A stretch of DNA of 64,000 nt, from assembly GCA_964020155.1 (NCBI GenBank), contig OZ026551.1, forward strand, positions 1 to 64,000. Reading direction: 5' to 3'. The position numbers and the translations under genes are program-made. The notes beneath the pieces were generated by a model. That model was not told the DNA's origin, did not search any database, and saw only the letters and a program-made list of their open reading frames with translations. This stretch comes from Chondrilla cf. caribensis (lineage: Eukaryota; Porifera; Demospongiae; Chondrillida; Chondrillidae). Shown here in pieces: positions 1,753-53,165 of this stretch (its first letter is position 1; every line of letters starts with the position of its first letter).

Positions 1753-1775
1753 ATAATAAAGAATGACAATAATTT

Positions 1776-2693
1776 CTATAATTGTTTCAGTTTGTCCTGG
1801 ATTTGCTTTGCCGTCCTGTTTATGTCCGGATAAGCTGACAGAAATTGACGGCATCTATCCAGCGAGGACTTCCTTGCTTCTCCAAAATATTTTATCATGG
1901 CACCCACTTCTTCAACAGTAAATTTCATTCGCTTCCCTTTTGTCCGTGCTGCTGGTTGTGGCTCTGGTTCACAATCTGTCTCCTCTTCACTTGAGGATAT
2001 TCTACTCCTTTTCCTGATGGATGATATGGCATTGTATGCCTTAATCCTCTGTTCTGCTTGACCAATGTGCTGGTAGTATGTGGCGGCAGTTTTCTCCGAG
2101 TGAGACATCTGTGTGGCTACTAGTCTCTTCTCAATATCTGTGCCAGACCCAGCTGCTAGGCTTGATGTTGCCTTCCTCACCGCTGTTGGCCCCAACACAA
2201 CTGATTCATTAATCTCTGCAGCAAGCTGCTTAATATCCGTACTGATGTGGCTGGGCTTTTGTCCAGTTGTTGTAATGAACAAGGGCCGCCAATCCTCCAT
2301 GTAACCCAGTTGAGGGCGAATGTGGTCCCGAAATGTCTTAAACATTTGATATACTTCTGCAGACATTACCAGCTTTGCTGATCCATATACCAGGCTTGTT
2401 TTATGTTCCTTTACGTTGACAATGGCGTACACTTCTTCGGCTTTGTGCACTTCTTGCACTTGATTTGCCTCTTTGACCGTCATGTTGATAATGGTTCCAG
2501 GCCTCTGGCCGTTTCGATAGAGAAGCTGCATTGCAATGTATCGTCGACAAAAGGTGTAGTCTGGTCCATCCACTTCATCATTTTGTGCAATTTCCTCGAA
2601 TCTGGCTTGTAACACTTCTGACTCCGTCAATCGTTGTACAAAACCCATCTCATTAACAATTGCTGGAATGCTCTCCTTCTTCTCCATTTGCAT
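1776..2693 (-). CDS. Exon 5: tyrosine recombinase catalytic domain and Myb/SANT-like tail
   Basis: 918 bases, acceptor TTGCATTTAG, ends in TAG. Catalytic landmarks in order: RNGQRPGTI (R805), EHKT (K839), TAVRKATSS (R914, with T in place of the usual H of HxxR), MSHSEKTAATYYQH (H939 and, nine residues on, Y948, the nucleophile position). The spacing of the last motif matches the HS-x7-Y arrangement of XerD-type enzymes. A serine/acid-rich linker and a basic patch (KGKRMKF) lead to a C-terminal helical tail like the Myb/SANT-like end of related animal proteins. It could stand alone as an ORF, but the in-frame join to exon 4 argues that it is part of the fusion. Confidence 0.87.
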   Translation of the reverse strand: MQMEKKESIPAIVNEMGFVQRLTESEVLQARFEEIAQNDEVDGPDYTFCRRYIAMQLLYRNGQRPGTIINMTVKEANQVQEVHKAEEVYAIVNVKEHKTSLVYGSAKLVMSAEVYQMFKTFRDHIRPQLGYMEDWRPLFITTTGQKPSHISTDIKQLAAEINESVVLGPTAVRKATSSLAAGSGTDIEKRLVATQMSHSEKTAATYYQHIGQAEQRIKAYNAISSIRKRSRISSSEEETDCEPEPQPAARTKGKRMKFTVEEVGAMIKYFGEARKSSLDRCRQFLSAYPDINRTAKQIQDKLKQL

Positions 2694-5300
2694 CTAAATG
2701 CAATAAACACAGTAAACATTTCAGTAAAATAGTGCACTTTAACATCCCAACCCTGACATAGTAACTTGAACATTTTGATTAAACAGTGCACTTAGGTAAA
2801 ATAACCATAACCCTAAATCTTTTGTATGTGATGCTTTTTACCTTGTACTTCTGTTTGGCAAAATGTGAATGCCAGGCCTTCAATTTCGTGATCATTCTTT
2901 GCACTTTTGCATAGTCTTGGCTGCTTGGGTCCATGTCGTTCGTGAGAAAGTCAAGGAAATTTCTCAAGCGAAGTATCTTTACGAGGATGCCCGCAGCTGT
3001 GATGCCGGTGTCCTTCAGAGTGGTCAAATAGTTGTTAAATTTGGCTGGGTCGTATGCTGAACACGGCTCTACATCATTGTCGTTACAAAAATGCAGATAT
3101 TTTGATATGTCGACTGCATTTTGTACAGCCTGGCTTCGTGATCTCTCTTTTCCGTCTATGCTCATTAGCCATTGAGTGTAATCATTGAGGATCCCAGTAT
3201 CAATGGGATGTTGGCCAAAGTTCCTTGTTGTACCAGCTCTGCGAGTACTTCCTATTGACTCCGTAATAGACCTCTCTTCTGCTGCCATTTTCATTTTCGG
3301 GGTAATTCGCCGTGTTGGGAGGACGGTCTTTGCTATGTTTAGCAACCTCTGACGTTCGGCAGGTGGCAACTGGTGCTTTTGTTGCAGATGCTGTGAAAGT
3401 TTGAGGACTGATGCCAAACAGCCTGGAACCGGGCAGTCTCGTCTTATTCGATTAGGCTTCTGTGGTCCAGGCTGGAGTTTTGCATCGGAAAATGTCCATT
3501 GCAGTTCCTCATCTCTGTAGATAATGATGTAATTTGTCAATACATTTGGCTAACACTAACCCTAATCACACACATTACTGTCAGTTGATCCTCTGACCCT
3601 TATCCTGAGTATACACTTACCGAATGCCATAGTCATAGAACAACTCCTCATCCTCCCTTATGTCTCGGCTTGCCACAAGGGCCACTCGTTTGACACCATT
3701 GATGGTGACAGGGTTATGGAGCTTCAAATTGGTGTTCTTGGCAGCATGGTTGACGAGTCTGCCAATTCTTCTAAATTGCCTAGTCCCATCAATGGCCACG
3801 TCCCTGCTGATATGGAGTATGAAGCAGCCTTCTTTATTTCCTCTGTATTCCTCCTCTCTCTTGTCAGCCTCTTCCATGGTGATAATGTCACCAGAGTATT
3901 CACAAACAAATTCTCCCTTACGGAACCTCTTCTTGGTGTAGACTCCACGCTGATTGTCAGACCTGATGATCACTTTCAGTGTTGAAGTCTCAAGATTTTC
4001 AGCCATAGAGAGATCATCAATCAGTTTCTCCAAAGGAGACATCGGCCACATGGGAGCAGGGTGCTCATCAGCTGGAATAACCTTGTCCTCTGGGTCCTCG
4101 TTGTGCTCATCAGTTTGAATATCTGTTGTCGGGTCCATGGTACACTCATCAGCTGGAACAACCTCATCCTCTGGGTCCTCGTTGTGCTCATCAGTTTGAA
4201 TATCTGTTGTCGGGTCCATGGTACACTCATCAGCTGGAACAACCTCATCCTCTGGGTCCTCGTTGTGCTCATCAGTTTGAATATCTGTTGTCGGGTCCAT
4301 GGTACACTCATCAGCTGGAACAACCTCATCCTCTGGGTCCTCGTTGTGCTCATCAGTTTGAATAACTATTGTCGGGTCCACAGTGCATTCATCAGCTGGA
4401 ACAACCTCATCCTCTGGGTCCTCGTTGTGCTCATCAGTTTGAATAACTGTTGCCGGGTCCACAGTGCATTCATCAGCTGGAACAACCTCGTCCTCATCCT
4501 CCTGGTCCTCATGCTCATCAGTTGGAGTAGGTGTTTTCAAGTCCATGGCGCACTCATCAGCTGGAATAACCTCATTCTCGTCCTCTGGGTCCATGGTGTG
4601 TTCATCAGTTGTAATAGCTATCTCTTGGTCCTTGATGGGTTCTTCCTTGTTTAGCAATCCAGATCCAGTACCTTGCAAAGGAATCTCAATACTATATCGA
4701 TTTGCATTTTGCTCAACTGGTTGTTTATCTAAAATACATATGTAAAGAGAAAGGTCAATGCTATTTCATTTTTGTAAGATATGTGTAAACTTACCAATGA
4801 ACTTCCTTGGCCACAAGACAAAGGCTCCAACATATAGTACTTGGTCATCCTCTATAGGATCCACATAGAAGGACTTCCCTCCTTCCAACACCTCTTTTAC
4901 ACTGAAAACAGCATCTTCAGGTGATACCCTATCCCCATGGAAATGTTCTCTTTCTGGATGGATCCAACCTAAAGCCATCACTTCTCCCTCTTCATTCTTT
5001 AATGCATACACAACTTCTTGTAAAGACACGATAATAACCTGGCAGTCCTTGGTAATAGACTTCTTAACCTGTGATGAAAATAACCCAAGTTAACACAATA
5101 TGTCATTAAAGTACTTGAAAATATGGACCTACTTCTTTGCCCTTGCAAAAAATTGCTTTATCTCCAAGATATCCTCTCCCAGTGAAGTTTTCTATGTTCT
5201 TCTTCAAGGTGTTAGGTGTGACTGGCTTTGGTAGATGTAAAGTTACCACTGAGTCTTGAGCTGTGGTGGAGTCTTTGACTTTGATTGAAACAAACTTCAT
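1776..5300 (-). CDS. SET domain / C2H2 / tyrosine recombinase fusion protein, five exons, 1046 aa
   Basis: Minus-strand gene with exons 5300-5133, 5068-4795, 4728-3621, 3514-2842 and 2693-1776. All four introns (64, 66, 106 and 148 bp) are GT-AG and the frame is kept at every junction, giving 1047 codons including the TAG stop. The start ATG at 5300 has A at -3. Domain order: unknown N-terminal region (1-150); acidic 27-residue repeats; KMT5A-like SET (about 393-517) with RGVY, GRLVNHA and ELFYDYG; C2H2-like finger (C544, C549, H559, H564); helical core-binding region (about 600-741); tyrosine-recombinase domain (about 790-955) with R805, K839, R914, H939 and Y948; basic linker; Myb/SANT-like tail (about 995-1046). 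SET enzymes methylate protein lysines, and tyrosine recombinases cut and rejoin DNA. The C-terminal half resembles Crypton-type or domesticated recombinases of invertebrates and fish. A mobile element or a host gene are both possible; the introns favour a host-type gene. Confidence 0.88.
2842..3514 (-). CDS. Exon 4: zinc-finger-like and core-binding region
   Basis: 673 bases, acceptor TTATCTACAG, donor TACAAG|GTAAAA, phase 0 at its end. The codon split across the exon 3/4 junction is CG|A (arginine). A C-x4-C-x9-H-x4-H finger (C544-H564) follows a basic stretch. After a linker comes a mostly helical region (DYTQWLMSIDGKERS onward) that fits the DNA-contacting core-binding domain found before the catalytic domain in tyrosine recombinases. 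Reading past the donor gives about twenty codons and a stop. Confidence 0.85.
3621..4728 (-). CDS. Exon 3: acidic repeats and SET domain
   Basis: 1108 bases, acceptor TGTATTTTAG, donor ATTCG|GTAAG. The first part encodes seven or so copies of an acidic 27-residue unit (core DEHNEDPEDEVVPADEC). The rest is a SET domain ending exactly at the exon end. SET landmarks: RGVY near 408-411, the EYSGD segment, GRLVNHA with N474 and H475 (the AdoMet-binding N-H pair), and YDYG with Y512 and Y514 (catalytic-pocket tyrosines). The pattern is closest to KMT5A (SET8), which monomethylates H4K20. The variant NHAAKN in place of the usual NHS is conservative. No pre-SET or post-SET cysteines are seen, as in KMT5A. 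Confidence 0.88.
4056..4540 (-). repeat. 81-bp coding minisatellite (27-residue acidic units)
   Basis: Five units with an 81-bp period at about 4056-4460 and at least two shorter, diverged units toward the N-terminal side. The three central units are nearly identical at DNA level, which points to recent expansion or unequal exchange. Each unit encodes aspartate/glutamate-rich sequence with one cysteine (PADEC), so the region is a long acidic linker. The opposite strand is also open for 197 codons, an effect of the repeat. Confidence 0.9.
4795..5068 (-). CDS. Exon 2 of SET-recombinase gene
   Basis: 274 bases. The acceptor is TTTTCATCACAG and the donor is ATTG|GTAAG; it ends in phase 1. The 91 full codons read from VKKSITKDC to the WPRKFIG end and give a compact globular-looking sequence with tryptophans and alternating hydrophobics. 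I do not recognise a family. With exon 1 it forms a separate N-terminal domain before the acidic linker. Confidence 0.85.
5133..5300 (-). CDS. Exon 1 of SET-recombinase gene
   Basis: 168 bases, 56 codons, phase 0 at its end. The donor is GAA|GTAGGT. It encodes a beta-rich-looking start (MKFVSIKVKD) followed by lysine-rich sequence; no known domain is recognised. It would read into a stop soon after the donor, which supports the splice. Confidence 0.85.
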
Positions 5301-5309
5301 GGTTCACAG

Positions 5310-5480: not shown

Positions 5481-5522
5481 TGAGTTGTCTCAGGGACTTG
5501 TCCCTTATGGCAAGTGAGAAGC

Positions 5523-5530
5523 TTATATAA
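5523..5530 (-). promoter_or_regulatory. TATA-like box, proximal copy
   Basis: TTATATAA, about 225 bases upstream of the ATG at 5300 in gene orientation, immediately downstream of the CCAAT array. The order CCAAT array, TATA, start is that of a metazoan polymerase II promoter. The start site would be near 5490-5500. No transcript evidence is available here. Confidence 0.5.
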
Positions 5531-5540
5531 TCAACACCCT

Positions 5541-5745
5541 GCAATCTGATTGGTCACTAACTTGCAATCTGATTGGTCTAAACTTATCCCTCTTAACTCG
5601 CAATCTGATTGGTCTAAACTTATCCCTCTTAACTCGCAATCTGATTGGTCTAAACTTATCCCTCTTAACTTGCAATCTGATTGGTCTAAACTTATTCCTC
5701 TTAACTTGCAATCTGATTGTTCTAAACTTATCTCTCTTAACTTCT
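5541..5745 (-). promoter_or_regulatory. CCAAT-box array, proximal (36-bp units)
   Basis: On the minus strand, CCAATCAGATTGC-type boxes have ATTGG (plus strand) at 5549, 5572, 5608, 5644 and 5680, then a degenerate ATTGT at 5716. Spacing is 36 bp after the first. CCAAT followed by CAG is the classical NF-Y site form. The array sits just upstream of the TATA-like box, so a role as NF-Y-driven promoter is a reasonable inference. Confidence 0.55.
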
Positions 5746-6759: not shown

Positions 6760-7400
6760 CCTAGCCCTAATATTATGGAGGACATTAGTATTCACGTGTC
6801 CCTCATAACTAATATCCCAAGCAAACTTAACTTAATACTAAAAACTTAAATTTATCCTTATCCTAATACTATGGAGGACATTAAAATTTCAAATGTCCCT
6901 TATAAATACTACTCCGACCTAACCCTACCCTAATGTCCCCTAGCTAAACAAAAGAAGGGGACATTTAAATCATGTGTCCCCCAAAGCCTACATGGGGTCC
7001 CACAGGGTCCTAATTGGAGGGACAAAGGATTGTAATGTCCCCAAAATCAGTTGGGGTTAATGGGGTTCATAGCCCATAGGGGACATATGACAATTCCCTG
7101 AGGGACACAAAATACTTAGGAAATTTTCAAGCATTATGGGGAAGTGACATGCCCTACATACTTGTGTATAGTAAGTGGGCGTGGCTCTAAGGGACATTTA
7201 TCAAGGCAACTAAAACTACAAGACTAAGTGGAAATATGGGGGACATGTCCCTCATAATAGGGGCACCCTATAAGGGACACATAATTGGTGAGGGACACGG
7301 ACCACTGTCAAGGTCATGTCCCTCATGGTAAATATATACTATGGGGGACACTTGGAAAATCTGAGGGACACGAAAGGGACATTTAGGTAGCCTATAGAGG
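6760..7400. repeat. Non-coding tract rich in GGGACAT / ATGTCCC words
   Basis: GGGACA or its complement TGTCCC occurs many times in both orientations, often as inverted pairs 10-40 bases apart; GGACATGTCC is a full palindrome at 7241-7250. Stray CCCTAA-like words (near 6760 and 6925) occur too. No ORF in this stretch is credible. The words match those in the 103-bp repeat at 1238-1543. Confidence 0.6.
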
Positions 7401-7422
7401 GACATATCCCTAAAATCCCTAG

Positions 7423-7476
7423 CCCTAACCCTAACCCTAACCCTAACCCTAACCCTAACCCTAACCCTAACCCTAA
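7423..7476. repeat. Interstitial telomeric repeat (CCCTAA)9
   Basis: Nine perfect CCCTAA units, preceded by a diverged half unit and followed by CCAT. TTAGGG is the ancestral animal telomere repeat. The orientation is that of a left-hand telomere for the satellite on its right: the TTAGGG strand runs toward the genes at 1-7 kb. Satellite sequence starts at 7481, four bases after the last unit. Confidence 0.95.
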
Positions 7477-7480
7477 CCAT

Positions 7481-8189: not shown

Positions 8190-10553
8190 TATATATATTG
8201 GCAATAGGGGGAAATTTTGGTCGACATCAAAATGAAACTTTTTGCTATCAGAAGGTAGCTACCAGGTCCAGGAGTGTGTCTGTGCATTTGGATTTGACCT
8301 AGGATGCATCACGTGCACACAGGAGAGGCCGTGGTGACAAGACCAAAATTTGACATTTTTTGGGCTTGTCACCACGAGGCTTATAGCGCACTCAGGACAA
8401 TCAGAATGCTTACGAAATTGTGTTGGTGAGTTAGGCATGGACACTAGGTAGCCCTTGGTGACCAGCAAAGAAATCTCAAATTGCTTAGGTGATCACCACA
8501 AGGCGTAATACACTTATATATGAATCTACATACAAAGTATATACATTGGTAATAGGGGGAAATTTTGGTCGACATCAAAATGAAACTTTTTGCTATCAGA
8601 AGGTAGCTACCAGGTCCAGGAGTGTGTCTGTGCATTTGGATTTGAGCTATGATGCATCACGTGCACACAGGAGTGGCCGTGGTGACAAGACCAAAAATTG
8701 ACATTTTTTGGGCTTGTCACCACGAGGCTTATAGCGCACTCAGGACAATCAGAATGCTTACGAAATTGTGTTGGTGAGTTAGGCATGGACACTAGGTAGC
8801 CCACGGTGACCAGCAAAGAAATATCAAATTGCTTAGGTGATCACCACAAAGCGTAATACACTTATATATGAATCTATGTACAAAGTATATACATTGGCAA
8901 TAGGGGGAAATTTTGGTCGACATCAAAATGCAACTTTTTGCTATCAGAAGGTAGCTACCAGGTCCAGGAGTGTGTCTGTGCATTTGGATTTGAGCTATGA
9001 TGCATCACGTGCACACAGGAGAGGCCGTGGTGACAAGACAAAAAATTGACATTTTTTGGGCTTGTCACCACGAGGCTTATAGCGCACTCAGGACAATCAG
9101 AATGCTTACGAAATTGTGTTGGTGAGTTAGGCATGGACACAAGGTAGCCCATGGTGACCAGCAAAGAAATATCAAATTGCTTAGGTGATCACCACAAGGC
9201 GTATTACACGCATATATGAATCTACATACAAAGTATATACATTGATAATAGGGGGAAATTTTGGTCGACATCAAAATGCAATTTTTTGCTATCAGAAGGT
9301 AGCTACCAGGTCCAGGAGTGTGTCTGTGCATTTGGATTTGAGCTATGATGCATCACGTGCACACAGGAGAGGCCGTGGTGACAAGATCAAAAATTGACAT
9401 TTTTTGGGCTTGTCACCACGAGGCTTATAGCGCACTCAGGACAATCAGAATGCTTACGAAATTGTGTTGGTGAGTTAGGCATGGACACTAGGTAGCCCAT
9501 GGTGACCAGCAAAGAAATATCAAATTGCTTAGGTGATCACCACAAGGCGTATTACACGCATATATGAATGTACATACAAAGTATATACATTTTATTATAT
9601 GTGGCACTGGGGGGAAATTTTGGTCGACACCAAAATGCAACTTTTTGCTATCAGAAGGTAGCTACCAGGTCCAGGAGTGTGTCTGTGCATTTGGATTTGA
9701 GCTATGATGCATCACGTGCACACAGGAGAGGCCGTGGTGACAAGATCAAAAATTGACATTTTTTGGGCTTGTCACCACGAGGCTTATAGCGCACTCAGGA
9801 CAATCAGAATGCTTACGAAATTGTGTTGGTGAGTTAGGCATGGACACTAGGTAGCCCATGGTGACCAGCAAAGAAATATCAAATTGCTTAGGTGATCACC
9901 ACAAGGCGTATTACACGCATATATGAATGTACATACAAAGTATATACATTTTATTATATGTGGCACTGGGGGGAAATTTTGGTCGACACCAAAATGCAAC
10001 TTTTTGCTATCAGAAGGTAGCTACCAGGTCCAGGAGTGTGTCTGTGCATTTGGATTTGAGCTATGATGCATCACGTGCACACAGGAGAGGCCGTGGTGAC
10101 AAGACAAAAAATTGACATTTTTTGGGCTTGTCACCACGAGGCTTATAGCGCACTCAGGACAATCAGAATGCTTACGAAATTGTGTTGGTGAGTTAGGCAT
10201 GGACACTAGGTAGGCCATGGTGACCAGCAAAGAAATATCAAATTGCTTAGGTGATCACCACAAGGCGTAATACACTTATATATGAATCTACATACAAAGT
10301 ATATACATTGGCAATAGGGGGAAATTTTTGTTGACATCAAAATGCATCTTTTTGCTATCAGAAGGTAGCTACCAGGTCCAGGAGTGTGTCTGTGCATTTG
10401 GATTTGAGCTATGATGCATCACGTGCACACAGGAGAGGCCGTGGTGACAAGATCAAAAATTGACATTTTTTGGGCTTGTCACCACGAGGCTTATAGCGCA
10501 CTCAGGACAATCAGAATGCTTACGAAATTGTGTTGGTGAGTTAGGCATGGACA
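8190..10553 (+). repeat. Satellite block A, monomeric
   Basis: About seven monomers without clear higher-order period. It opens with 348-bp forms and then shows two adjacent 359-bp forms (around 9540-10250). It is next to the telomere-repeat junction. Confidence 0.8.
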
Positions 10554-12049
10554 CTAGGTAGCCCACGGTGACAAGCAAAGAAATCTCAAATTGCTTAGGT
10601 GATCACCACAAGGCGTATTACACGCATATATGAATGTACATACAAAGTATATACATTGGCAATAGAGGGAAATTTTGGTCGACATCAAAATGCATCTTTT
10701 TGCTATCAGAAGGTAGCTACCAGGTCCAGGAGTGTGTCTGTGCATTTGGATTTGAGCTATGATGCATCACGTGCACACAGGAGAGGCCGTGGTGACAAGA
10801 TCAAAAATTGACATTTTTTGGGCTTGTCACCACGAGGCTTATAGCGCACTCAGGACAATCAGAATGCTTACGAAATTGTGTTGGTGAGTTAGGCATGGAC
10901 ACTAGGTAGCCCATGGTGACCAGCAAAGAAATATCAAATTGCTTAGGTGATCACCACAAGGCGTATTACACGCATATATGAATGTACATACAAAGTATAT
11001 ACATTTTATTATATGTGGCACTGGGGGGAAATTTTGGTCAACACCAAAATGCAACTTTTTGCTATCAGAAGGTAGCTACCAGGTCCAGGAGTGTGTCTGT
11101 GCATTTGGATTTGAGCTATGATGCATCACGTGCACACAGGAGAGGCCGTGGTGACAAGATCAAAAATTGACATTTTTTGGGCTTGTCACCACGAGGCTTA
11201 TAGCGCACTCAGGACAATCAGAATGCTTACGAAATTGTGTTGGTGAGTTAGGCATGGACACTAGGTAGGCCATGGTGACCAGCAAAGAAATATCAAATTG
11301 CTTAGGTGATCACCACAAGGCGTAATACACTTATATATGAATCTACATACAAAGTATATACATTGGCAATAGGGGGAAATTTTGGTCGAAATCAAAATGC
11401 ATCTTTTTGCTATCAGAAGGTAGCTACCAGGTCCAGGAGTGTGTCTGTGCATTTGGATTTGAGCTATGATGCATCACGTGCACACAGGAGAGGCCGTGGT
11501 GACAAGACCAAAAATTGACATTTTTTGGGCTTGTCACCACGAGGCTTATAGTGCACTCAGGACAATCAGAATGCTTACGAAATTGTGTTGGTGAGTTAGG
11601 CATGGACACTAGGTAGCCCACGGTGACAAGCAAAGAGATCTCTAATTGCTTAGGTGATCACCACAAGGTGTATTACACGCATATATGAATGTACATACAA
11701 AGTATATACATTGGCAATAGGGGGAAATTTTGGTCGAAATCAAAATGCATCTTTTTGCTATCAGAAGGTAGCTACCAGGTCCAGGAGTGTGTCTGTGCAT
11801 TTGGATTTGAGCTATGATGCATCACGTGCACACAGGAGAGTCCGTGGTGACAAGATCAAAAATTGACATTTTTTGGGCTTGTCACCACGAGGCTTATAGC
11901 GCACTCAGGACAATCAGAATGCTTACGAAATTGTGTTGGTGAGTTAGGCATGGACACTAGGTAGCCCTTGGTGACCAGCAAAGAAATCTCAAATTGCTTA
12001 GGTGATCACCCAAGGCGTAATACACTTATATATGAATCTACATACAAAG

Positions 12050-12085
<36 letters not shown>

Positions 12086-14517
12086 ATAGGGGGAAATTTT
12101 GGTCGACATCAAAATGCATCTTATTGCTATCAGAAGGTAGCTACCAGGTCCAGGAGTGTGTCTGTACATTTGGATTTGAGCTATGATGCATCACGTGCAC
12201 ACAGGAGAGGCCGTGGTGACAAGACAAAAAATTGACATTTTTTGGGCTTGTCACCACGAGGCTTATAGCGCACTCAGGACAATCAGAATGCTTACGAAAT
12301 TGTGTTGGTGAGTTAGGCATGGACACTAGGTAGCCCATGGTGACCAGCAAAGAAATATCAAATTGCTTAGGTGATCACCACAAGGCGTAATACACTTATA
12401 TATGAATCTACATACAAAGTATATACATTGGCAATAGGGGGAAATTTTGGTCGACATCAAAATGCATCTTTTTGCTATCAGAAGGTAGCTACCAGGTCCA
12501 GGAGTGTGTCTGTGCATTTGGATTTGAGCTATGATGCATCACGTGCACACAGGAGAGGCCGTGGTGACAAGATCAAAAATTGACATTTTTTGGGCTTGTC
12601 ACCACGAGGCTTATAGCGCACTCAGGACAATTAGAATGCTTACGAAATTGTGTTGGTGAGTTAGGCATGGACACTAGGTAGCCCACGGTGACAAGCAAAG
12701 AAATCTCAAATTGCTTAGGTGATCACCACAAGGCGTATTACACGCATATATGAATGTACATACAAAGTATATACATTGGCAATAGGGGGAAATTTTGGTC
12801 GACATCAAAATGCATCTTTTTGTTATCAGAAGGTAGCTACCAGGTCCAGGAGTGTGTCTGCGCATTTGGATTTGACCTAGGATGCATCACGTGCACGCAG
12901 GAGAGGCCGTGGTGACAAGATCAAAAATTGACATTTTTTGGGCTTGTCACCACGAGGCTTATAGCGCACTCAGGACAAGCAGAATGCTTACGAAATTGTG
13001 TTGGTGAGTTAGGCATGGACACTAGGTAGCCCTTGGTGACCAGCAAAGAAATCTCAAATTGCTTAGGTGATCACCACAAGGCGTATTACACGCATATATG
13101 AATGTACATACAAAGTATATACATTGGCAATAGAGGGAAATTTTGGTCGACATCAAAATGCATCTTTTTGCTATCAGAAGGTAGCTACCAGGTCCAGGAG
13201 TGTGTCTGTGCATTTGGATTTGAGCTATGATGCATCACGTGCACACAGGAGAGGCCGTGGTGACAAGATCAAAAATTGACATTTTTTGGGCTTGTCACCA
13301 CGAGGCTTATAGCGCACTCAGGACAATCAGAATGCTTACGAAATTGTGTTGGTGAGTTAGGCATGGACACTAGGTAGCCCATGGTGACCAGCAAAGAAAT
13401 ATCAAATTGCTTAGGTGATCACCACAAGGCGTATTACACGCATATATGAATGTACATACAAAGTATATACATTTTATTATATGTGGCACTGGGGGGAAAT
13501 TTTGGTCAACACCAAAATGCAACTTTTTGCTATCAGAAGGTAGCTACCAGGTCCAGGAGTGTGTCTGTGCATTTGGATTTGAGCTATGATGCATCACGTG
13601 CACACAGGAGAGGCCGTGGTGACAAGATCAAAAATTGACATTTTTTGGGCTTGTCACCACGAGGCTTATAGCGCACTCAGGACAATCAGAATGCTTACGA
13701 AATTGTGTTGGTGAGTTAGGCATGGACACTAGGTAGGCCATGGTGACCAGCAAAGAAATATCAAATTGCTTAGGTGATCACCACAAGGCGTAATACACTT
13801 ATATATGAATCTACATACAAAGTATATACATTGGCAATAGGGGGAAATTTTGGTCGAAATCAAAATGCATCTTTTTGCTATCAGAAGGTAGCTACCAGGT
13901 CCAGGAGTGTGTCTGTGCATTTGGATTTGAGCTATGATGCATCACGTGCACACAGGAGAGGCCGTGGTGACAAGACCAAAAATTGACATTTTTTGGGCTT
14001 GTCACCACGAGGCTTATAGTGCACTCAGGACAATCAGAATGCTTACGAAATTGTGTTGGTGAGTTAGGCATGGACACTAGGTAGCCCACGGTGACAAGCA
14101 AAGAGATCTCTAATTGCTTAGGTGATCACCACAAGGTGTATTACACGCATATATGAATGTACATACAAAGTATATACATTGGCAATAGGGGGAAATTTTG
14201 GTCGAAATCAAAATGCATCTTTTTGCTATCAGAAGGTAGCTACCAGGTCCAGGAGTGTGTCTGTGCATTTGGATTTGAGCTATGATGCATCACGTGCACA
14301 CAGGAGAGTCCGTGGTGACAAGATCAAAAATTGACATTTTTTGGGCTTGTCACCACGAGGCTTATAGCGCACTCAGGACAATCAGAATGCTTACGAAATT
14401 GTGTTGGTGAGTTAGGCATGGACACTAGGTAGCCCTTGGTGACCAGCAAAGAAATCTCAAATTGCTTAGGTGATCACCCAAGGCGTAATACACTTATATA
14501 TGAATCTACATACAAAG

Positions 14518-14553
<36 letters not shown>

Positions 14554-15489
14554 ATAGGGGGAAATTTTGGTCGACATCAAAATGCATCTTATTGCTATCA
14601 GAAGGTAGCTACCAGGTCCAGGAGTGTGTCTGTACATTTGGATTTGAGCTATGATGCATCACGTGCACACAGGAGAGGCCGTGGTGACAAGACAAAAAAT
14701 TGACATTTTTTGGGCTTGTCACCACGAGGCTTATAGCGCACTCAGGACAATCAGAATGCTTACGAAATTGTGTTGGTGAGTTAGGCATGGACACTAGGTA
14801 GGCCATGGTGACCAGCAAAGAAATATCAAATTGCTTAGGTGATCACCACAAGGCGTAATACACTTATATATGAATCTACATACAAAGTATATACATTGGC
14901 AATAGGGGGAAATTTTGGTCGACATCAAAATGCATCTTTTTGCTATCAGAAGGTAGCTACCAGGTCCAGGAGTGTGTCTGTGCATTTGGATTTGAGCTAT
15001 GATGCATCACGTGCACACAGGAGAGGCCGTGGTGACAAGATCAAAAATTGACATTTTTTGGGCTTGTCACCACGAGGCTTATAGCGCACTCAGGACAATT
15101 AGAATGCTTACGAAATTGTGTTGGTGAGTTAGGCATGGACACTAGGTAGCCCACGGTGACAAGCAAAGAAATCTCAAATTGCTTAGGTGATCACCACAAG
15201 GCGTATTACACGCATATATGAATGTACATACAAAGTATATACATTGGCAATAGGGGGAAATTTTGGTCGACATCAAAATGCATCTTTTTGTTATCAGAAG
15301 GTAGCTACCAGGTCCAGGAGTGTGTCTGCGCATTTGGATTTGACCTAGGATGCATCACGTGCACGCAGGAGAGGCCGTGGTGACAAGATCAAAAATTGAC
15401 ATTTTTTGGGCTTGTCACCACGAGGCTTATAGCGCACTCAGGACAAGCAGAATGCTTACGAAATTGTGTTGGTGAGTTAGGCATGGACA
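10554..15489 (+). repeat. Satellite block B, 2468-bp higher-order repeat, two copies
   Basis: Copies at about 10554-13021 and 13022-15489 hold seven monomers each, with the same variants in the same order. These include a 359-bp monomer, one with GAGATCTCTAATTGC, and one with an expanded TA tract (12048-12078 and 14516-14546). The copies look nearly identical, so the duplication is recent. Confidence 0.88.
12048..12078. repeat. TA dinucleotide expansion inside a satellite monomer
   Basis: The GTATATACATTGG part of the monomer is replaced by an (AT)n run followed by GTATGTAATAGG. Copies of this expanded monomer occur at about 14516 and 15942, carried by the higher-order duplication. Confidence 0.85.
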
Positions 15490-15942
15490 CTAGGTAGCCC
15501 TTGGTGACCAGCAAAGAAATCTCAAATTGCTTAGGTGATCACCACAAGGCGTATTACACGCATATATGAATGTACATACAAAGTATATACATTTTATTAT
15601 ATGTGGCACTGGGGGGAAATTTTGGTCGACACCAAAATGCAACTTTTTGCTATCAGAAGGTAGCTACCAGGTCCAGGAGTGTGTCTGTGCATTGGGATTT
15701 GAGCTATGATGCATCACGTGCACACAGGAGAGGCCGTGGTGACAAGATCAAAAAATTGACATTATTTGGGCTTGTCACCACGAGGCTTATAGCGCACTCA
15801 GGACAATCAGAATGCTTACGAAATTGTGTTGGTGAGTTAGGCATGGACACTAGGTAGCCCTTGGTGACCAGCAAAGAAATATCAAATTGCTTAGGTGATC
15901 ACCCAAGGCGTAATACACTTATATATGAATCTACATACAAAG

Positions 15943-15978
<36 letters not shown>

Positions 15979-18900
15979 ATAGGGGGAAATTTTGGTCGAC
16001 ATCAAAATGCATCTTATTGCTATCAGAAAGTACCTACCAGGTCCAGGAGTGTGTCTGTGCATTTGGATTTGAGCTATGATGCATCACGTGCACACAGGAG
16101 AGGCCGTGGTGACAAGACCACAAATTGACATTTTTTGGGCTTGTCACCACGAGGCTTATAGCGCACTCAGGACAATCAGAATGCTTACGAAATTGTGTTG
16201 GTGAGTTAGGCATGGACACTAGGTAGCCCATGGTGACCAGCAAAGAAATATCAAATTGCTTAGGTGATCACCACAAGGCGTAATACACTTATATATGAAT
16301 CTACATACAAAGTATTTACATTGGCAATAGGGGGAAATTTTGGTTGACAACAAAATGCATCTTTTTGCTATCAGAAGGTAGCTACCAGGTCCAGGAGTGT
16401 GTCTGTGCATTTGCATTTGAGCTATGATGCATTACGTGCACACAGGAGAGGCCGTGGTAACAAGACCACAAATTGACATTTTTTGGGCTTGTCACCACGA
16501 GGCTTATAGCGCACTCAGGACAATCAGAATGCTTACGAAATTGTGTTGGTGAGTTAGGCATGGACACTAGGTAGCCCTTGGTGACCAGCAAAGAAATATC
16601 AAATTGCTTAGGTGATCACCAAAAGGCGTAATACACTTATATATGAATCTACATACAAAGTATATACATTGGCAATAGGGGGAAATTTTGGTCGACATCA
16701 AAATGCATCTTTTTGCTATCAGAAGGTAGCTACCAGGTCCAGGAGTGTGTCTGTGCATTTGGATTTGAGCTATGATGCATTACGTGCACACAGGAGAGGC
16801 CGTGGTGACAAGACCAAAAATTGACATTTTTTGGGCTTGTCACCACGAGGCTTATAGCGCACTCAGGACAATCAGAATGCTTACGAAATTGTGTTGGTGA
16901 GTTAGGCATGGACACTAGGTAGCCCATGGTGACCAGCAAAGAAATATCAAATTGCTTAGGTGATCACCCAAGGCGTAATACACTTATATATGAATCTACA
17001 TACAAAGTATATACATTGGCAATAGGGGGAAATTTTGGTCGAAATCAAAATGCATCTTTTTGCTATCAGAAGGTAGCTACCAGGTCCAGGAGTGTGTCTG
17101 TGCATTTGGATTTGACCTATGATGCATCACGTGCACACAGGAGAGGCCGTGGTGACAAGACCAAAAATTGACATTTTTTGGGCTTGTCACCACGAGGCTT
17201 ATAGCGCACTCAGGACAATCAGAATGCTTACGAAATTGTGTTGGTGAGTTAGGCATGGACACTAGGTAGCCCATGGTGACCAGCAAAGAAATATCAAATT
17301 GCTTAGGTGATCACCACAAGGCGTATTACACGCATATATGAATCTACATACAAAGTATATATATATTGGTAATAGGGGGAAATTTTGGTCGAAATCAAAA
17401 TGCATCTTTTTGCTATCAGAAGGTAGCTACCAGGTCCAGGAGTGTGTCTGTGCATTTGGATTTGAACTATGATGCATCACGTGCACACAGGAGAGGCCGT
17501 GGTGACAAGACCAAAATTGACATTTTTTGGGCTTGTCACCACGAGGCTTATAGCGCACTCAGGACAATCAGAATGCTTACGAAATTGTGTTGGTGAGTTA
17601 GGCATGGACACTAGGTAGCCCTTGGTGACCAGCAAAGAAATATCAAATTGCTTAGGTGATCACCACAAGGCGTATTACACGCATATATGAATGTACATAC
17701 AAAGTATATACATTTTATTATATGTGGCACTGGGGGGAAATTTTGGTCGACATCAAAATGCATCTTTTTGCTATCAGAAGGTAGCTACCAGGTCCAGGAG
17801 TGTGTCTGTGCATTTGGATTTGAGCTATGATGCATCACGTGCACACAGGAGAGGCCGTGGTGACAAGATCAAAAATTGACATTTTTTGGGCTTGTCACCA
17901 CGAGGCTTATAGCGCACTCAGGACAATCAGAATGCTTACGAAATTGTGTTGGTGAGTTAGGCATGGACACTAGGTAGGCCATGGTGACCAGCAAAGAAAT
18001 ATCAAATTGCTTAGGTGATCACCACAAGGCGTAATACACTTATATATGAATCTACATACAAAGTATATACATTGGCAATAGGGGGAAATTTTGGTCGACA
18101 TCAAAATGCATCTTTTTGCTATCAGAAGGTAGCTACCAGGTCCAGGAGTGTGTCTGTGCATTTGGATTTGACCTATGATGCATCACGTGCACACAGGAGA
18201 GGCCGTGGTGACAAGATCAAAAATTGACATTTTTTGGGCTTGTCACCACGAGGCTTATAGCGCACTCAGGGCAATCAGAATGCTTACGAAATTGTGTTGG
18301 TGAGTTAGGCATGGACACTAGGTAGCCCATGGTGACCAGCAAAGAAATCTCAAATTGCTTAGGTGATCACCACAAGGCGTATTACACGCATATATGAATG
18401 TACATACAAAGTATATACATTTTATTACATGTGGCATTGGGGGGAAATTTTGGTCGAAATCAAAATGAAACTTTTTGCTATCAGAAGGTAGCTACCAGGT
18501 CCAGGAGTGTGTCTGTGCATTTGGATTTGAGCTATGATGCATCACGTGCACACAGGAGAGGCCGTGGTGACAAGACAAAAAATTGACATTTTTTGGGCTT
18601 GTCACCACGAGGCTTATAGCGCACTCAGGACAATCAGAATGCTTACGAAATTGTGTTGGTGAGTTAGGCATGGACACTAGGTAGCCCATGGTGATCAGCA
18701 AAGAAATATCAAATTGCTTAGGTGATCACCCAAGGCGTAATACACTTATATATGAATCTACATACAAAGTATATACATTGGCAATAGGGGGAAATTTTGG
18801 TCGACATCAAAATGCAACTTTTTGCTATCAGAAGGTAGCTACCAGGTCCAGGAGTGTGTCTGTGCATTTGGATTTGAGCTATGATGCATTACGTGCACAA

Positions 18901-19170
18901 AGGAGAGGCCGTGGTGACAAGACCAAAAATTGATATTTTTTGGGCTTATAGCGCACTCAGGACAATCAGAATGCTTACGAAATTGTGTTGGTGAGTTAGG
19001 CATGGACACTAGGTAGCCCATGGTGACCAGCAAAGAAATATCAAATTGCTTAGGTGATCACCCAAGGCGTAATACACTTATATATGAATCTACATACAAA
19101 GTATATACATTGGCAATAGGGGGAAATTTTGGTCGAAATCAAAATGCATCTTTTTGCTATCAGAAGGTAG
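15490..19170 (+). repeat. Satellite block C, mixed monomers
   Basis: About ten monomers of mixed type. One carries a TA expansion near 15942-15972 like those in block B. One monomer near 18930-18960 has lost about 15 bases from the right hairpin arm (TTGGGCTTATAGCG joins directly). Confidence 0.8.
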
Positions 19171-22100
19171 CTACCAGGTCCAGGAGTGTGTCTGTGCATT
19201 TGGATTTGAGCTATGATGCATCACGTGCACACAGGAGAGGCTGTGGTGACAAGACAAAAAATTGACATTTTTTGGGCTTGTCACCACGAGGCTTATAGCG
19301 CACTCAGGACAATCAGAATGCTTACGAAATTGTGTTGGTGAGTTAGGCATGGACACTAGGTAGCCCATGGTGACCAGCAAAGAAATCTCAAATTGCTTAC
19401 GTGATCACCACAAGGCGTAATACACTTATATATGAATCTACATACAAAGTATATATATATTGGTAATAGGGGGAAATTTTGGTCGACATCAAAATGCACC
19501 TTTTTGTTATCAGAAGGTAGCTACCAGGTCCAGGAGTGTGTCTGTGCATTTGGATTTGAGCTATGATGCATCACGTGCACACAGGAGAGGCCGTGGTGAC
19601 AAGACCAAAAATTGACATTTGTTTGGCTTGTCACCACGAGGCTTATAGCGCACTCAGGACAATCAGAATGCTTACGAAATTGTGTTGGTGAGTTAGGCAT
19701 GGACACTAGGTAGCCCTTGGTGACCAGCAAAGAAATCTCAAATTGCTTAGGTGATCACCACAAGGCGTAATACACATATATATATGAATCTACATACAAA
19801 GTATATACATTGGCAATAGGGGGAAATTTTGGTCGAAATCAAAATGCATGTTTTTGTTATCAGAAGGTAGCTACCAGGTCCAGGAGTGTGTCTGTGCATT
19901 TGGATTTGAGCTATGATGCATCACGTGCACACAGGAGAGGCCGTGGTGACAAGACCAAAAATTGACATTTTTTGGGCTTGTCACCACGAGGCTTATAGCG
20001 CACTCAGGACAATCAGAATGCTTACGAAATTGTGTTGGTGAGTTAGGCATGGACACTAGGTAGCCCATGGTGATCAGCAAAGAAATATCAAATTGCTTAG
20101 GTGATCACCCAAGGCGTAATACACTTATATATAAATCTACATACAAAGTATATATATATTGGTAATAGAGGGAAATTTTGGTCGACATCAAAATGAAACT
20201 TTTTGCTATCAGAAGGTAGCTACCAGGTCCAGGAGTGTGTCTGTGCATTTGGATTTGAGCTATGATGCATCACGTGCACACAGGAGAGGCTGTGGTGATA
20301 AGACAAAAAATTGACATTTTTTGGGCTTGTCACCACGAGGCTTATAGCGCACTCAGGACAATCAGAATGCTTACGAAATTGTGTTGGTGAGTTAGGCATG
20401 GACACTAGGTAGCCCATGGTGACCAGCAAAGAAATCTCAAATTGCTTAGGTGATCACCACAAAGCGTAATACACTTTTATATGAATCTACATACAAAGTA
20501 TATACATTTTATTATATGTGGCACTGGGGGGAAATTTTGGTCGACACCAAAATGCAACTTTTTGCTATCAGAAGGTAGCTACCAGGTCCAGGAGTGTGTC
20601 TGTGCATTTGGATTTGAGCTATGATGCATCACGTGCACACAGGAGAGGCCGTGGTGACAAGACCAATTTTGACATTTTTTGGGCTTGTCACCACGAGGCT
20701 TATAGCGCACTCAGGACAATCAGAATGCTTACGAAATTGTGTTGGTGAGTTAGGCATGGACACTAGGTAGCCCTTGGTGACCAGCAAAGAAATATCAAAT
20801 TGCTTAGGTGATCACCCAAGGCGTAATACACTTATATATGAATCTACATACAAAGTATATATATATTGGCAATAGAGGGAAATTTTGGTCGAAATCAAAA
20901 TGCATCTTTTTGCTATCAGAAGGTAGCTACCAGGTCCAGGAGTGTGTCTGTGCATTTGGATTTGAGCTATGATGCATCACGTGCACACAGGAGAGGCCGT
21001 GGTGACAAGACAAAAAATTGACATTTTTTGGGCTTGTCACCACGAGGCTTATAGCGCACTCAGGACAATCAGAATGCTTACGAAATTGTGTTGGTGAGTT
21101 AGGCATGGACACTAGGTAGCCCATGGTGACCAGCAAAGAAATCTCAAATTGCTTACGTTATCACCACAAGGCGTAATGCACTTATATATGAATCTACATA
21201 CATAGTATATATATATTGGTAATAGGGGGAAATTTTGGTCGACATCAAAATGCACCATTTTGTTATCAGAAGGTAGCTACCAGGTCCAGGAGTGTGTCTG
21301 TGCATTTGGATTTGAGCTATGATGCATCACGTGCACACAGGAGAGGCCGTGGTGACAAGACCAAAAATTGACATTTGTTTGGCTTGTCACCACGAGGCTT
21401 ATAGCGCACTCAGGACAATCAGAATGCTTACGAAATTGTGTTGGTGAGTTAGGCATGGACACTAGGTAGCCCTTGGTGACCAGCAAAGAAATCTCAAATT
21501 GCTTAGGTGATCACCCAAGGCGTAATACACATATATATATGAATCTACATACAAAGTATATACATTGGCAATAGGGGGAAATTTTGGTCGAAATCAAAAT
21601 GCATGTTTTTGCTATCAGAAGGTAGCTACCAGGTCCAGGAGTGTGTCTGTGCATTTGGATTTGAGCTATGATGCATCACGTGCACACAGGAGAGGCCGTG
21701 GTGACAAGACCAAAAATTGACATTTTTTGGGCTTGTCACCACGAGGCTTATAGCGCACTCAGGACAATCAGAATGCTTACGAAATTGTGTTGGTGAGTTA
21801 GGCATGGACACTAGGTAGCCCATGGTGACCAGCAAAGAAATCTCAAATTGCTTAGGTGATCACCCAAGGCGTAATACACTTATATATGAATCTACATACA
21901 AAGTATATATATATTGGCAATAGAGGGAAATTTTGGTCGAAATCAAAATGCATCTTTTTGCTATCAGAAGTTAGCTACCAGGTCCAGGAGTGTGTCTGTG
22001 CATTTGGATTTGAGCTATGATGCATCACGTGCACACAGGAGAGGCCGTGGTGACAAGACAAAAAATTGACATTTTTTGGGCTTGTCACCACGAGGCTTAT

Positions 22101-24438
22101 AGCGCACTCAGGACAATCAGAATGCTTACGAAATTGTGTTGGTGAGTTAGGCATGGACACTAGGTAGCCCATGGTGACCAGCAAAGAAATATCAAATTGC
22201 TTAGGTGATCACCACAAAGCGTAATACACTTATATATGAATCTACATACAAAGTATATACATTTTATTATATGTGGCACTGGGGGGAAATTTTGGTCGAC
22301 ACCAAAATGCAACTTTTTGCTATCAGAAGGTAGCTACCAGGTCCAGGAGTGTGTCTGTGCATTTGGATTTGAGCTATGATGCATCACGTGCACACAGGAG
22401 AGGCCGTGGTGACAAGACCAAAATTGACATTTTTTGGGCTTGTCACCACGAGGCTTATAGCGCACTCAGGACAATCAGAATGCTTACGAAATTGTGTTGG
22501 TGAGTTAGGCATGGACACTAGGTAGCCCATGGTGACCAGCAAAGAAATCTCAAATTGCTTAGGTGATCACCCAAGGCGTAATACACTTATATATGAATCT
22601 ACATACAAAGTATATATATATTGGCAATAGAGGGAAATTTTGGTCGAAATCAAAATGCATCTTTTTGCTATCAGAAGGTAGCTACCAGGTCCAGGAGTGT
22701 GTCTGTGCATTTGGATTTGAGCTATGATGCATCACGTGCACACAGGAGAGGCCGTGGTGACAAGACAAAAAATTGACATTTTTTGGGCTTGTCACCACGA
22801 GGCTTATAGCGCACTCAGGACAATCAGAATGCTTACGAAATTGTGTTGGTGAGTTAGGCATGGATACTAGGTAGCCCATGGTGACCAGCAAAGAAATCTC
22901 AAATTGCTTACGTTATCACCACAAGGCGTAATGAACTTATATATGAATCTACATACAAAGTATATATATATTGGTAATAGGTTGAAATTTTGGTCGACAT
23001 CAAAATGCACCATTTTGTTATCAGAAGGTAGCTACCAGGTCCAGGAGTGTGTCTGTGCATTTGGATTTGAGCTATGATGCATCACGTGCACACAGGAGAG
23101 GCCGTGGTGACAAGACCAAAAATATACATTTGTTTGGCTTGTCACCACGAGGCTTATAGCGCACTCAGGACAATCAGAATGCTTACGAAATTGTGTTGGT
23201 GAGTTAGGCATGGACACTAGGTAGCCCTTGGTGACCAGCAAAGAAATCTCAAATTGCTTAGGTGATCACCCAAGGCGTAATACACATATATATATGAATC
23301 TACATACAAAGTATATACATTGGCAATAGGGGGAAATTTTGGTCGAAATCAAAATGCATGTTTTTGCTATCAGAAGGTAGCTACCAGGTCCAGGAGTGTG
23401 TCTGTGCATTTGGATTTGAGCTATGATGCATCACGTGCACACAGGAGAGGCCGTGGTGACAAGATCAAAAATTGACATTTTTTGGGCTTGTCACCACGAG
23501 GCTTATAGCGCACTCAGGACAATCAGAATGCTTACGAAATTGTGTTGGTGAGTTAGGCATGGACACTAGGTAGCCCATGGTGACCAGCAAAGAAATCTCA
23601 AATTGCTTAGGTGATCACCACAAAGCGTAATACACTTATATATGAATCTACATACAAAGTATATACATTTTATTATATGTGGCACTGGGGGGAAATTTTG
23701 GTCGACACCAAAATGCAACTTTTTGCTATCAGAAGGTAGCTACCAGGTCCAGGAGTGTGTCTGTGCATTGGGATTTGAGCTATGATGCATCACGTGCACA
23801 CAGGAGAGGCCGTGGTGACAAGACCACAAATTGACATTTTTTGGGCTTGTCACCACGAGGCTTATAGCGCACTCAGGACAATCAGAATGCTTACGAAATT
23901 GTGTTGGTGAGTTAGGCATGGACACTAGGTAGCCCATGGTGACCAGCAAAGAAATCTCAAATTGCTTAGGTGATCACCCAAGGCGTAATACACTTATATA
24001 TGAATCTACATACAAAGTATATATATATTGGCAATAGAGGGAAATTTTGGTCGACATCAAAATGCATCTTTTTGCTATCAGAAGTTAGCTACCAGGTCCA
24101 GGAGTGTGTCTGTGCATTTGGATTTGAGCTATGATGCATCACGTGCACACAGGAGAGGCCGTGGTGACAAGACAAAAAATTGACATTTTTTGGGCTTGTC
24201 ACCACGAGGCTTATAGCGCACTCAGGACAATCAGAATGCTTACGAAATTGTGTTGGTGAGTTAGGCATGGACACTAGGTAGCCCATGGTGACCAGCAAAG
24301 AAATCTCAAATTGCTTACGTTATCACCACAAGGCGTAATGCACTTATATATGAATCTACATACAAAGTATATATATATTGGTAATAGGGGGAAATTTTGG
24401 TCGACATCAAAATGCACCATTTTGTTATCAGAAGGTAG
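19171..24438 (+). repeat. Satellite block D, ~1756-bp higher-order repeat, three copies
   Basis: Five-monomer units start near 19171, 20927 and 22682; the pattern continues to about 25000. Diagnostic variants recur at this spacing: TTGCTTACGT(G/T)ATCACC, ATTTGTTTGGCTTG, a TACACATATATATATG leader, and one 359-bp monomer. Small differences between copies (such as GTTGAAATTT near 22981) mark individual units. Confidence 0.88.
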
Positions 24439-36400: not shown

Positions 36401-37100
36401 AAGGTCCAGGAGTGCGTCTGTGCATTTGGATTTGAGCTATGATGCATCACGTGCACACAGGAAAGGCCGTGGTGACAAGACCAAAATTATACATTTTTTG
36501 GGCTTGTCACCACGAGGCTTATAGCGCACTCAGGACAATCAGAATGCTTACGAAATTGTGTTGGTGAGTTAGGCATGGACACTAGGTAGCCCTTGGTGAC
36601 CAGCAAAGAAATCTCAAATTGCTTAGGTGATCACCACAAGGCGTATTACACGCATATATGAATGTACATACAAAGTATATACATTATATTATATGTGGCA
36701 CTGGGGGGAAATTTTGGTCGACACCAAAATGCATCTTTTTGCTATCAGAAGGTAGCTACCAGGTCCAGGAGTGTGTCTGTGCATTTGGATTTGAGCTATG
36801 ATGCATCACGTGCACACAGGAGAGGCCGTGGTGACAAGACAAAAAATTGACATTTTTTGGGCTTGTCACCACGAGGCTTATAGCGCACTCAGGACAATCA
36901 GAATGCTTACGAAATTGTGTTGGTGAGTTAGGCATGGACACTAGGTAGCCCTTGGTGACCAGCAAAGAAATATCAAATTGCTTAGGTGATCACCCAAGGC
37001 GTAATACACTTATAGATGAATCTACATACAAAGTATATACATTGGCAATAGGGAGAAATTTTGGTCGACATCAAAATGCATCTTTTTGCTATCAGAAGGT
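24089..37100 (+). repeat. Satellite block E, 7387-bp super-repeat with nested 1760- and 1057-bp repeats
   Basis: Sequence from about 24089 recurs 7387 bp later up to about 36985. Inside the first copy a five-monomer 1760-bp unit is duplicated (about 27839-29598 and 29599-31358). The second copy has only one, so from there the offset becomes 5627 bp. A three-monomer 1057-bp repeat is nested too (25344 and 26401; 32731 and 33788). Marker variants include GGTCGATATCAAAATG, TCGGTCG and CTCAAGAAGTAACACAC. Confidence 0.88.
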
Positions 37101-37319
37101 AGCTACCAGGTCCAGGAGTGTGTCTGTGCATTTGGATTTGAGCTATGATGCATCACGTGCACACAGGAGAGGCCGTGGTGACAAGATCAAAAATTGACAT
37201 TTTTTGGGCTTGTCACCACGAGGCTTATAGCGCACTCAGGACAATCAGAATGCTTACGAAATTGTGTTGGTGAGTTAGGCATGGACACTAGGTAGCCCTT
37301 GGTGACCAGCAAAGAAATC

Positions 37320-43300: not shown

Positions 43301-43330
43301 TGCTTAGGTGATCACCACAAGGCGTATTAC
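37320..43330 (+). repeat. Satellite block F, 3514-bp higher-order repeat with nested 1053-bp repeat
   Basis: Ten-monomer unit at about 37320-40833 and again from 40834 (second copy incomplete). Shared markers are AAATTAAGTTGG (37618 and 41132), GGTAGCTGCCAGG (37804 and 41318) and TTTTTGATATCAG. A three-monomer 1053-bp repeat (38858 and 39911) is nested. Confidence 0.85.
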
Positions 43331-44910: not shown

Positions 44911-44956
44911 CGTGGTGACAAGACCAAAAATTGACATTTTTGGTCTTGTCACCACG
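44911..44956. other. Perfect 20-bp hairpin, example of the per-monomer hairpin
   Basis: CGTGGTGACAAGACCAAAAA, a six-base loop TTGACA, and the exact complement of the stem. Most monomers have the same hairpin with one or two mismatches (for example 8330-8376). It could extrude as a cruciform in DNA or fold in a transcript. Confidence 0.9.
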
Positions 44957-52842: not shown

Positions 52843-53165
52843 AGGGGCTGCCGCAGGCAGCCCCTATATTGTTTTCATTTCAACTTCCGGTATGTTACGC
52901 TCGTCCGATATATATATATATATATATATAATATGTGTTCCTACGCATAACCGCAACAATGAATTTATATTATAATTTATATTGCGCGAAAACAAGATGG
53001 CCGATTTCGAACGCCGACAATTAGAAATTGGCCTAGAATTCGTGCGTTGAAGCTTCGCCGTACGTAATAACTTCAGCGAAGGTTTTTCTGAATATAAGAA
53101 AGACGCCCAAGTAATTCGAGTGCGGGGGGCGGCAGCCCCACGAGTTTTTGAACTCGAATTACTTG
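52843..53165. mobile_element. 323-bp hairpin-ended insertion in the satellite
   Basis: The left end is a perfect hairpin, AGGGGCTGCC and GGCAGCCCCT around GCA (52843-52865). The right end is a 14-bp inverted repeat, CAAGTAATTCGAGT and ACTCGAATTACTTG (53108-53165), enclosing a second GGCAGCCCC. The interior has a TA microsatellite (about 52908-52930) and CG-containing sequence unlike the satellite. It sits in a run of five T; the copies of this monomer at 49.7 and 56.3 kb lack it, and the offset between repeats grows by 325 bp (323 plus TT). Structure and T-T insertion recall non-autonomous Helentron/Helitron2-type elements, but a hairpin-rich MITE is also possible. Confidence 0.7.

Follow-up and report, generated by a model that had tools for sequence, protein, structure and literature searches.

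The 64,000-nucleotide stretch analyzed here (the window) opens contig OZ026551.1 (C6) of the 137 Mb genome assembly GCA_964020155.1 of the sponge Chondrilla cf. caribensis. On its minus strand, from position 5300 to 1776, lie five exons that are joined in frame and encode a protein of 1046 residues, in which a SET domain of the KMT5A type is followed first by a zinc finger and then by a divergent tyrosine recombinase. The exon structure was predicted from the genomic sequence alone, from which the frame, the domains and their residues, the copy number and the place of the gene on the chromosome were likewise read.

Gene structure and the joint behind the SET domain

All four introns (64, 66, 106 and 148 nt) have GT-AG borders, and the frames stay open to the exon ends across exons of 1108, 673 and 918 nt. 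The coordinates and joins of the original prediction were reproduced. Neither AATAAA nor ATTAAA occurs in any of the four introns.

Intron 3 separates the SET domain from the finger and the recombinase. The alternative to a fusion would be two adjacent genes, a SET gene that stops inside this intron and a separate recombinase gene. Retention of intron 3 would indeed place a stop immediately after ...YDYGIR, directly behind the SET domain, so that a SET-only product is conceivable. However, this intron of 106 nt contains no poly(A) signal and has the donor TCG/GTAAGT, and the frame of exon 4 extends upstream only to a stop codon followed by PNVLTNYIIIYR. The first ATG of this frame does not occur before residue 591, which is past the finger (residues 544-564). 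A separate recombinase gene would therefore lose the finger, and an upstream exon is required. The two halves of the recombinase also follow each other in the usual order. Two genes are thus improbable, and one spliced gene that joins SET domain, finger and recombinase, as originally proposed, is well supported by the predicted structure.

SET domain, finger and recombinase

The Pfam SET model matched residues 408-515 with 65.3 bits (E = 7.4e-18), above its cut-off of 22.4 bits. Among the PDB matches listed (60 of 114), chains of KMT5A/SETD8 ranked first with 83 to 90 bits, and KMT2A was the next family with 58 bits. Residues Y425, N474, H475, Y512 and Y514 align with the catalytic positions Y245, N298, H299, Y334 and Y336 of KMT5A. 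The KMT5A-like character claimed for the domain was thus borne out. By domain score and residues, it is a putative lysine methyltransferase of the KMT5A type, which may monomethylate H4K20.

The host has a separate KMT5A-like gene at C3:1772279-1772948. The SET domain of this gene is split by an intron and is 54.7% identical to human KMT5A, whereas the fused SET domain lies in a single exon and shares 43.5% identity with human KMT5A and 39.4% with the host gene. Because its identity to the host gene is below that to the human protein, the fused domain does not appear to be a recent copy, and recent capture of the host KMT5A-like gene is unsupported.

The putative finger behind the SET domain matched no Pfam finger family. 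A degenerate version of its pattern gave 39 and 69 matches genome-wide against 28 and 24 in the controls, and was uninformative. The region encoded by exons 4 and 5 has the usual recombinase order, a core-binding part (exon 4) followed by a catalytic part (exon 5), with weak matches for both. Phage_int_SAM_1 was matched with E = 0.051 in the whole protein and E = 0.013 for exon 4 alone (both below the Pfam cut-off), and a XerC model with E = 0.0069 for exon 4 (also below cut-off). Phage_integrase scored 19.5 bits in the whole protein and 22.7 bits (E = 9.6e-5) for exon 5 alone, and did not reach its cut-off of 27.1 bits. We also used a profile of four other recombinases, namely two Xer-type PDB chains, the phage-like integrase L010 and the DIRS-like L023. 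It scored exons 4 and 5 at 15.0 bits, compared with a maximum of 9.4 bits in 2000 shuffles, which are a control for composition only.

The catalytic set of tyrosine recombinases is R-K-H-R-H/W-Y. R805, R914, H939 and Y948 are in register with catalytic positions, and T911 replaces the histidine of the HxxR motif. For the lysine, the candidate K839 lines up with the DIRS-like row alone, the XerA row being gapped there, and K836 is possible instead. The original prediction had a C2H2-like finger and a full tyrosine recombinase after the SET domain. The finger and most of the catalytic residues were found, but "full" was too generous, because the Phage_integrase score is under the curated threshold and the HxxR motif has a threonine in place of its histidine. 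As judged from these alignments, exons 4-5 appear to encode a divergent tyrosine recombinase that keeps most catalytic residues and may be active.

A real SET domain could also be joined to an unrelated orphan domain, or to a decayed recombinase that serves in DNA binding only. This would fit the sub-threshold scores of every recombinase family, the threonine in the HxxR motif, the uncertain lysine, and a homology search that returned only the window's own protein. Nevertheless, we regard this explanation as highly improbable: the models for the core-binding and catalytic parts hit in the expected order, the profile score exceeds those of all 2000 shuffles, and two arginines, the histidine and the tyrosine are in register with the reference recombinases.

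With regard to the origin of the recombinase, a link to the Cryptons of animals had been hinted at. DUF3504 was not listed at E ≤ 10 for the whole protein or its exons. A genome-wide search with Phage_integrase gave 52 places at E ≤ 10, the window's own recombinase not being among them; long frames were inspected at 20 of these places, eight were aligned and four of the eight were scanned with Pfam. All four (L011, L013, L015 and L022) belong to DUF3504 with 115-127 bits. An hhalign comparison of the window's recombinase with the eight gave a probability of 0.4%, with only 39 columns aligned, outside the catalytic domain. The hint was therefore not upheld, and a Crypton origin was rejected for the CryptonA/DUF3504 branch, the one branch that the comparison covered. 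As to DIRS or Ngaro elements, no reverse transcriptase was found in a Pfam scan of the 1046 residues, and outside the gene there is no frame longer than 105 aa in positions 1-12000. The same scan of the 1046 residues found no DDE (mariner) transposase domain. No phage or giant-virus relatives were found for exons 4 and 5 (in the set "phages") or for exon 5 and the SET domain (in the set "viral_contigs"), in searches by which close relatives only are detectable. The phage-type integrase L010 lies together with adjoining long frames on a contig of 10.7 kb (C29), which is probably a phage or bacterial contig.

The remaining parts of the protein are less readily classified. Exons 1 and 2 (about 147 aa) had no significant match (best Pfam E = 0.019, best PDB E = 0.32), and a ubiquitin-like identity of exon 1, suggested by eye, was unsupported by the Pfam and PDB comparison. 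The acidic repeats of exon 3 comprise seven TDEH units. The last 56 residues matched Myb_DNA-bind_4 with E = 0.027 and the Myb domain of TRF2 with E = 0.45; the TRF2 match was lost with a shorter query, and a TRF2-like Myb tail is no more than a lead.

Upstream of the gene, the promoter-like region (Table 1) has a second copy farther upstream, within a 444-bp tandem duplication. The 231 nt that precede the start codon, a span extending to the TATA-like box, are free of ATG. Upstream of the main gene, on the minus strand at 6333-6712, there may be a small gene of two exons (105 aa), for which Pfam gave no match.

Table 1. Features of the gene and its surroundings, in window coordinates unless a contig is named
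Feature	Position	Strand	Remarks
Exon 1	5133..5300	-	start codon 5298-5300; residues 1-56
Exon 2	4795..5068	-	with exon 1, N-terminal region
Exon 3	3621..4728	-	acidic repeats and SET domain
Acidic units, 81-bp (27-codon) tandem repeats	4064..4579	-	in frame; TDEHNEDPEDEVVPADECTMDPTTDIQ type
KMT5A-like SET domain	3621..3961	-	about residues 404-517; Y425, N474, H475, Y512, Y514 kept
Intron 3	3515..3620	-	junction of SET with finger and recombinase
Exon 4	2842..3514	-	zinc finger and SAM-like core-binding region
C-x4-C-x9-H-x4-H finger	3373..3435	-	residues 544-564
SAM-like core-binding region (Phage_int_SAM_1)	2941..3129	-	residues 646-708; below cut-off
Exon 5	1776..2693	-	catalytic domain of the recombinase and C-terminus; includes the stop codon
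Phage_integrase match	2064..2558	-	residues 787-951; R805, K839 (or K836), T911/R914, H939, Y948
Basic C-terminal stretch, possible Myb/SANT-like domain	1776..1946	-	coordinates counted back from stop
TATA-like box	5524..5529	-	229 nt upstream of start codon
36-bp tandem repeats and five CCAAT boxes	5550..5743	-	CCAAT at 254 to 385 nt upstream; promoter-like
GGGACA[TC]-rich block	6799..7416		chromosome-end DNA; copies on C9, C18
Telomere-like (CCCTAA)n tract	7417..7478		short; left-end orientation; gene on distal side
348-bp satellite array	8190..64000		last exact word near C6:70,750
C9-type frame copies	C5:10353-10763, C9:5768088-5768498, C12:5254298-5286459 (three places)		100% identity

Copy number and chromosome-end setting

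Exon 5, exon 4 and exons 1-2 were each found once in the 137 Mb, in searches that score the best candidates only and in a genome with masked stretches. The flank at 900-1640 also has a single occurrence, and the flank at 5300-6240 a single one plus one 52-bp piece at 85%. A search with the SET domain led to five further, distant places. None of 22 SET places in the genome lies within 89 kb of a Phage_integrase place (the window's own excluded). Two closely similar frames 33 kb apart (L006, C1:731287, and L008, C1:764757) have MORN-like repeats before a SET domain and are presumably SET7/9-like.

Protein searches covered 5.8 billion proteins and required shared five-residue words, so that distant relatives may be missed. 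With this reservation, residues 395-960 had no homolog at E ≤ 0.001 among 7993 candidates, and a second search (3816 candidates) recovered only the window's own exon-4 frame. A third, with only 64 candidates, gave one plant SET protein with E = 5.6e-3.

GGGACA[TC] words are abundant in both flanks (9 in 900-1775, 19 in 5301-8189) and absent from the gene, suggesting that the gene sits among chromosome-end repeats. Elsewhere, 59 loci that partly overlap one another have 19 instances of GGGACAT in 254,911 bases. Copies of the block rich in GGGACA[TC] words, 88-92% identical to it, lie at C9:5766357-5767376 and C18:4924273-4925293. The 348-bp satellite is represented by more than 150 copies in the window and is present at other contig ends, too. 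Nineteen further contig-end pieces from C1-C10, including one that is all N, one that is half N and one that is the far end of C6, were inspected; 10 contain satellite words and 12 long CCCTAA or TTAGGG arrays.

The flanks of the gene share a perfect inverted match of 14 nt, a length that was reached by 6 of 200 resampled flanks. With one free base, this 14-mer has six occurrences in the genome, four of them at this locus, compared with three for the control. Positions 7521-8184 hold inverted arms of 33 nt that are 598 nt apart, with satellite on both sides, and resemble a small non-autonomous transposon. Tandem repeats of 220 bp occupy positions 3-946 at the contig start, downstream of the gene.

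A locus of 4.9 kb on C9 has the same order as the window, namely a coding frame, a GGGACA[TC]-rich block, a telomere-like tract and the 348-bp satellite. The C9 frame has 381 codons and begins with proline-rich repeats; its end matches Phage_int_SAM_1 with E = 0.0062, below cut-off. No sequence relation was found between this frame and the window gene. The last 137 residues of the C9 frame occur with 100% identity at five places in the genome, each near a contig end, three of them within the final 34 kb of C12, which is 5,287,732 long. Because the frame recurs in this way, there appear to be further recombinase-like frames near contig ends.

Function, mobility and known systems

We tentatively favor, at a little under even confidence, the view that the gene encodes a DNA-tethered lysine methyltransferase and is a single-copy chimeric gene fixed in the host. 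The KMT5A-like SET domain would be fused to a finger-recombinase module in one chromatin protein. The finger and the recombinase fold, perhaps together with a Myb-like tail, would tether this protein to specific DNA sites, where a lysine, most likely of histone H4 (the KMT5A substrate), would be methylated by the SET domain. The original suggestion that chromatin is marked where the protein binds or recombines DNA may hold. The recombinase would be derived from a mobile element and now be fixed in the genome, where its main role may be DNA binding, or it may still cut and join DNA. This view is supported by the spliced frame, the nearness of the SET domain to KMT5A and its kept residues, the recombinase signal above all 2000 shuffles together with the Phage_integrase match of exon 5, the single-copy exons, the TATA-like and CCAAT boxes with no ATG before the start codon, and the separate host KMT5A-like gene with its split SET domain.

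Several observations weigh against this view. The gene lies amid chromosome-end DNA that partly recurs on C9 and C18, which would fit a mobile unit as well. The recombinase family matches are under the curated cut-offs, and a structure model of exon 5 from the single sequence had a mean pLDDT (predicted local distance difference test) of 37 and a pTM (predicted template modeling score) of 0.20. At the same time, the catalytic residues kept are more than a pure DNA-binding role needs, and the fused SET domain is no closer to the host KMT5A-like gene than to human KMT5A. Finally, we infer transcription, DNA targeting, the histone substrate and any strand exchange, and having to infer the targeting and the substrate counts on the same side.

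The main alternative is a lone intact mobile element of the tyrosine recombinase type, perhaps one that favors chromosome ends, with the SET domain as anti-silencing or targeting cargo. We consider this possible but doubtful. The conserved arginines, histidine and tyrosine, together with the likely lysine, are consistent with an element. Transposons are able to carry SET genes, as HarbingerS and MuDR of Phytophthora do (PMC12730594). No repeat pair around the gene clearly marks the ends of an element, but animal Cryptons are without terminal repeats (PMC3212892), so that unclear ends do not exclude an element. The GGGACA[TC] words on both sides but not within the gene, and the inverted flank match (6 of 200 resampled flanks), also point in this direction. 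The C9-type frames lift the mobile-element explanation somewhat, since a recombinase-like frame adjoins the shared block on C9 and has five copies, each near a contig end. On the other hand, this frame is unrelated to the window gene and its core-binding match is below cut-off. The search with the coding parts gave no further copy among the best candidates in the unmasked sequence of the 137 Mb, and the gene has four introns. Moreover, the GGGACA[TC] block continues at C9 without the window gene, and should therefore be regarded as chromosome-end DNA rather than as proven element ends.

We consider a further view unlikely. Chromosome ends may house more than one family of recombinase-type genes, and the window gene may be a self-marking recombinase that, as one polypeptide, would bind its site, methylate nearby histones, and cut and rejoin the DNA at that site, and that may act on the ends or spread through them.

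The least probable explanation is an assembly artefact, in which a foreign or misplaced piece was joined to the chromosome end: the gene segment lies beyond the telomere-like tract, and the C6 scaffold is not clean, because its far end (L062, C6:5986136-5991135; 63% G+C, two long bacterial-looking frames) is probably a bacterial piece scaffolded on. Against this, the window is without N, and its introns and promoter are of eukaryotic type. Two contigs, the longest of 431 kb, are on record with the exon-4 frame, and at C9 block, tract and satellite follow one another as they do in the window.

In the literature, no report of a fusion of a SET domain with a tyrosine recombinase was found among sources that excluded Repbase Reports and most subscription journals, with broader matches judged by the title and the start of the abstract. 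No co-mention of Crypton with KMT5A or SETD8, or of tyrosine recombinase with KMT5A, was found either. The paper on Cryptons (PMC3212892) has no mention of "SET domain" or "methyltransferase". In the parts available of reviews that mention Crypton, "SET domain" and "tyrosine recombinase", the terms are used apart. Fusions of SET with a transposase are known (SETMAR, HarbingerS), and an earlier description of a fusion with a tyrosine recombinase is possible.

Crypton recombinases have become part of the animal genes WOC/ZMYM, QRICH1, KCTD1 and KIAA1958 (PMC3212892). There, too, a recombinase domain was fixed beside other domains, but it is of the DUF3504 type and has lost most catalytic residues, unlike the window gene. 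HarbingerS and MuDR are alike in that they carry a SET histone methyltransferase gene (PMC12730594), whereas transposase classes and hosts differ.

The nearest SET domain among the PDB matches listed is that of KMT5A/SET8. KMT5A is not known to contain a recombinase. The KMT5A type is tied to H4K20 and genome stability. PRDM9 resembles the window gene in that it combines a SET-type methyltransferase with zinc fingers and marks recombination sites; it differs in that it is not known to have a recombinase domain and the break is made by another protein.

SETMAR (Metnase) of primates is a SET domain joined to a mariner transposase; the protein binds transposon ends and targets chromatin via the transposase (PMC8327481). 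It resembles the predicted window gene in that a host gene has a lysine methyltransferase of the SET type attached, in one frame, to a DNA transposon's recombination enzyme (PMC8327481). Unlike the window gene, which has a tyrosine recombinase, SETMAR has a mariner DDE transposase. Its SET domain is also farther from that of the window gene, with 38.5 bits compared with 90 for KMT5A among the PDB matches listed. SETMAR is not known to have a finger between SET domain and transposase. Fusions of the SETMAR type bear on how hosts gain targeted chromatin factors and on how elements may evade silencing. A fusion with a tyrosine recombinase raises the question of whether a single enzyme couples the methylation of histones to strand exchange, a question that the KMT5A type, with its tie to H4K20, makes concretely assayable. 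The chromosome-end location, with other recombinase-like frames, raises in addition the question of telomere-dwelling recombinases. If the present reading holds, the tyrosine-recombinase version would be an independent case of the solution that SET-transposase fusions represent.

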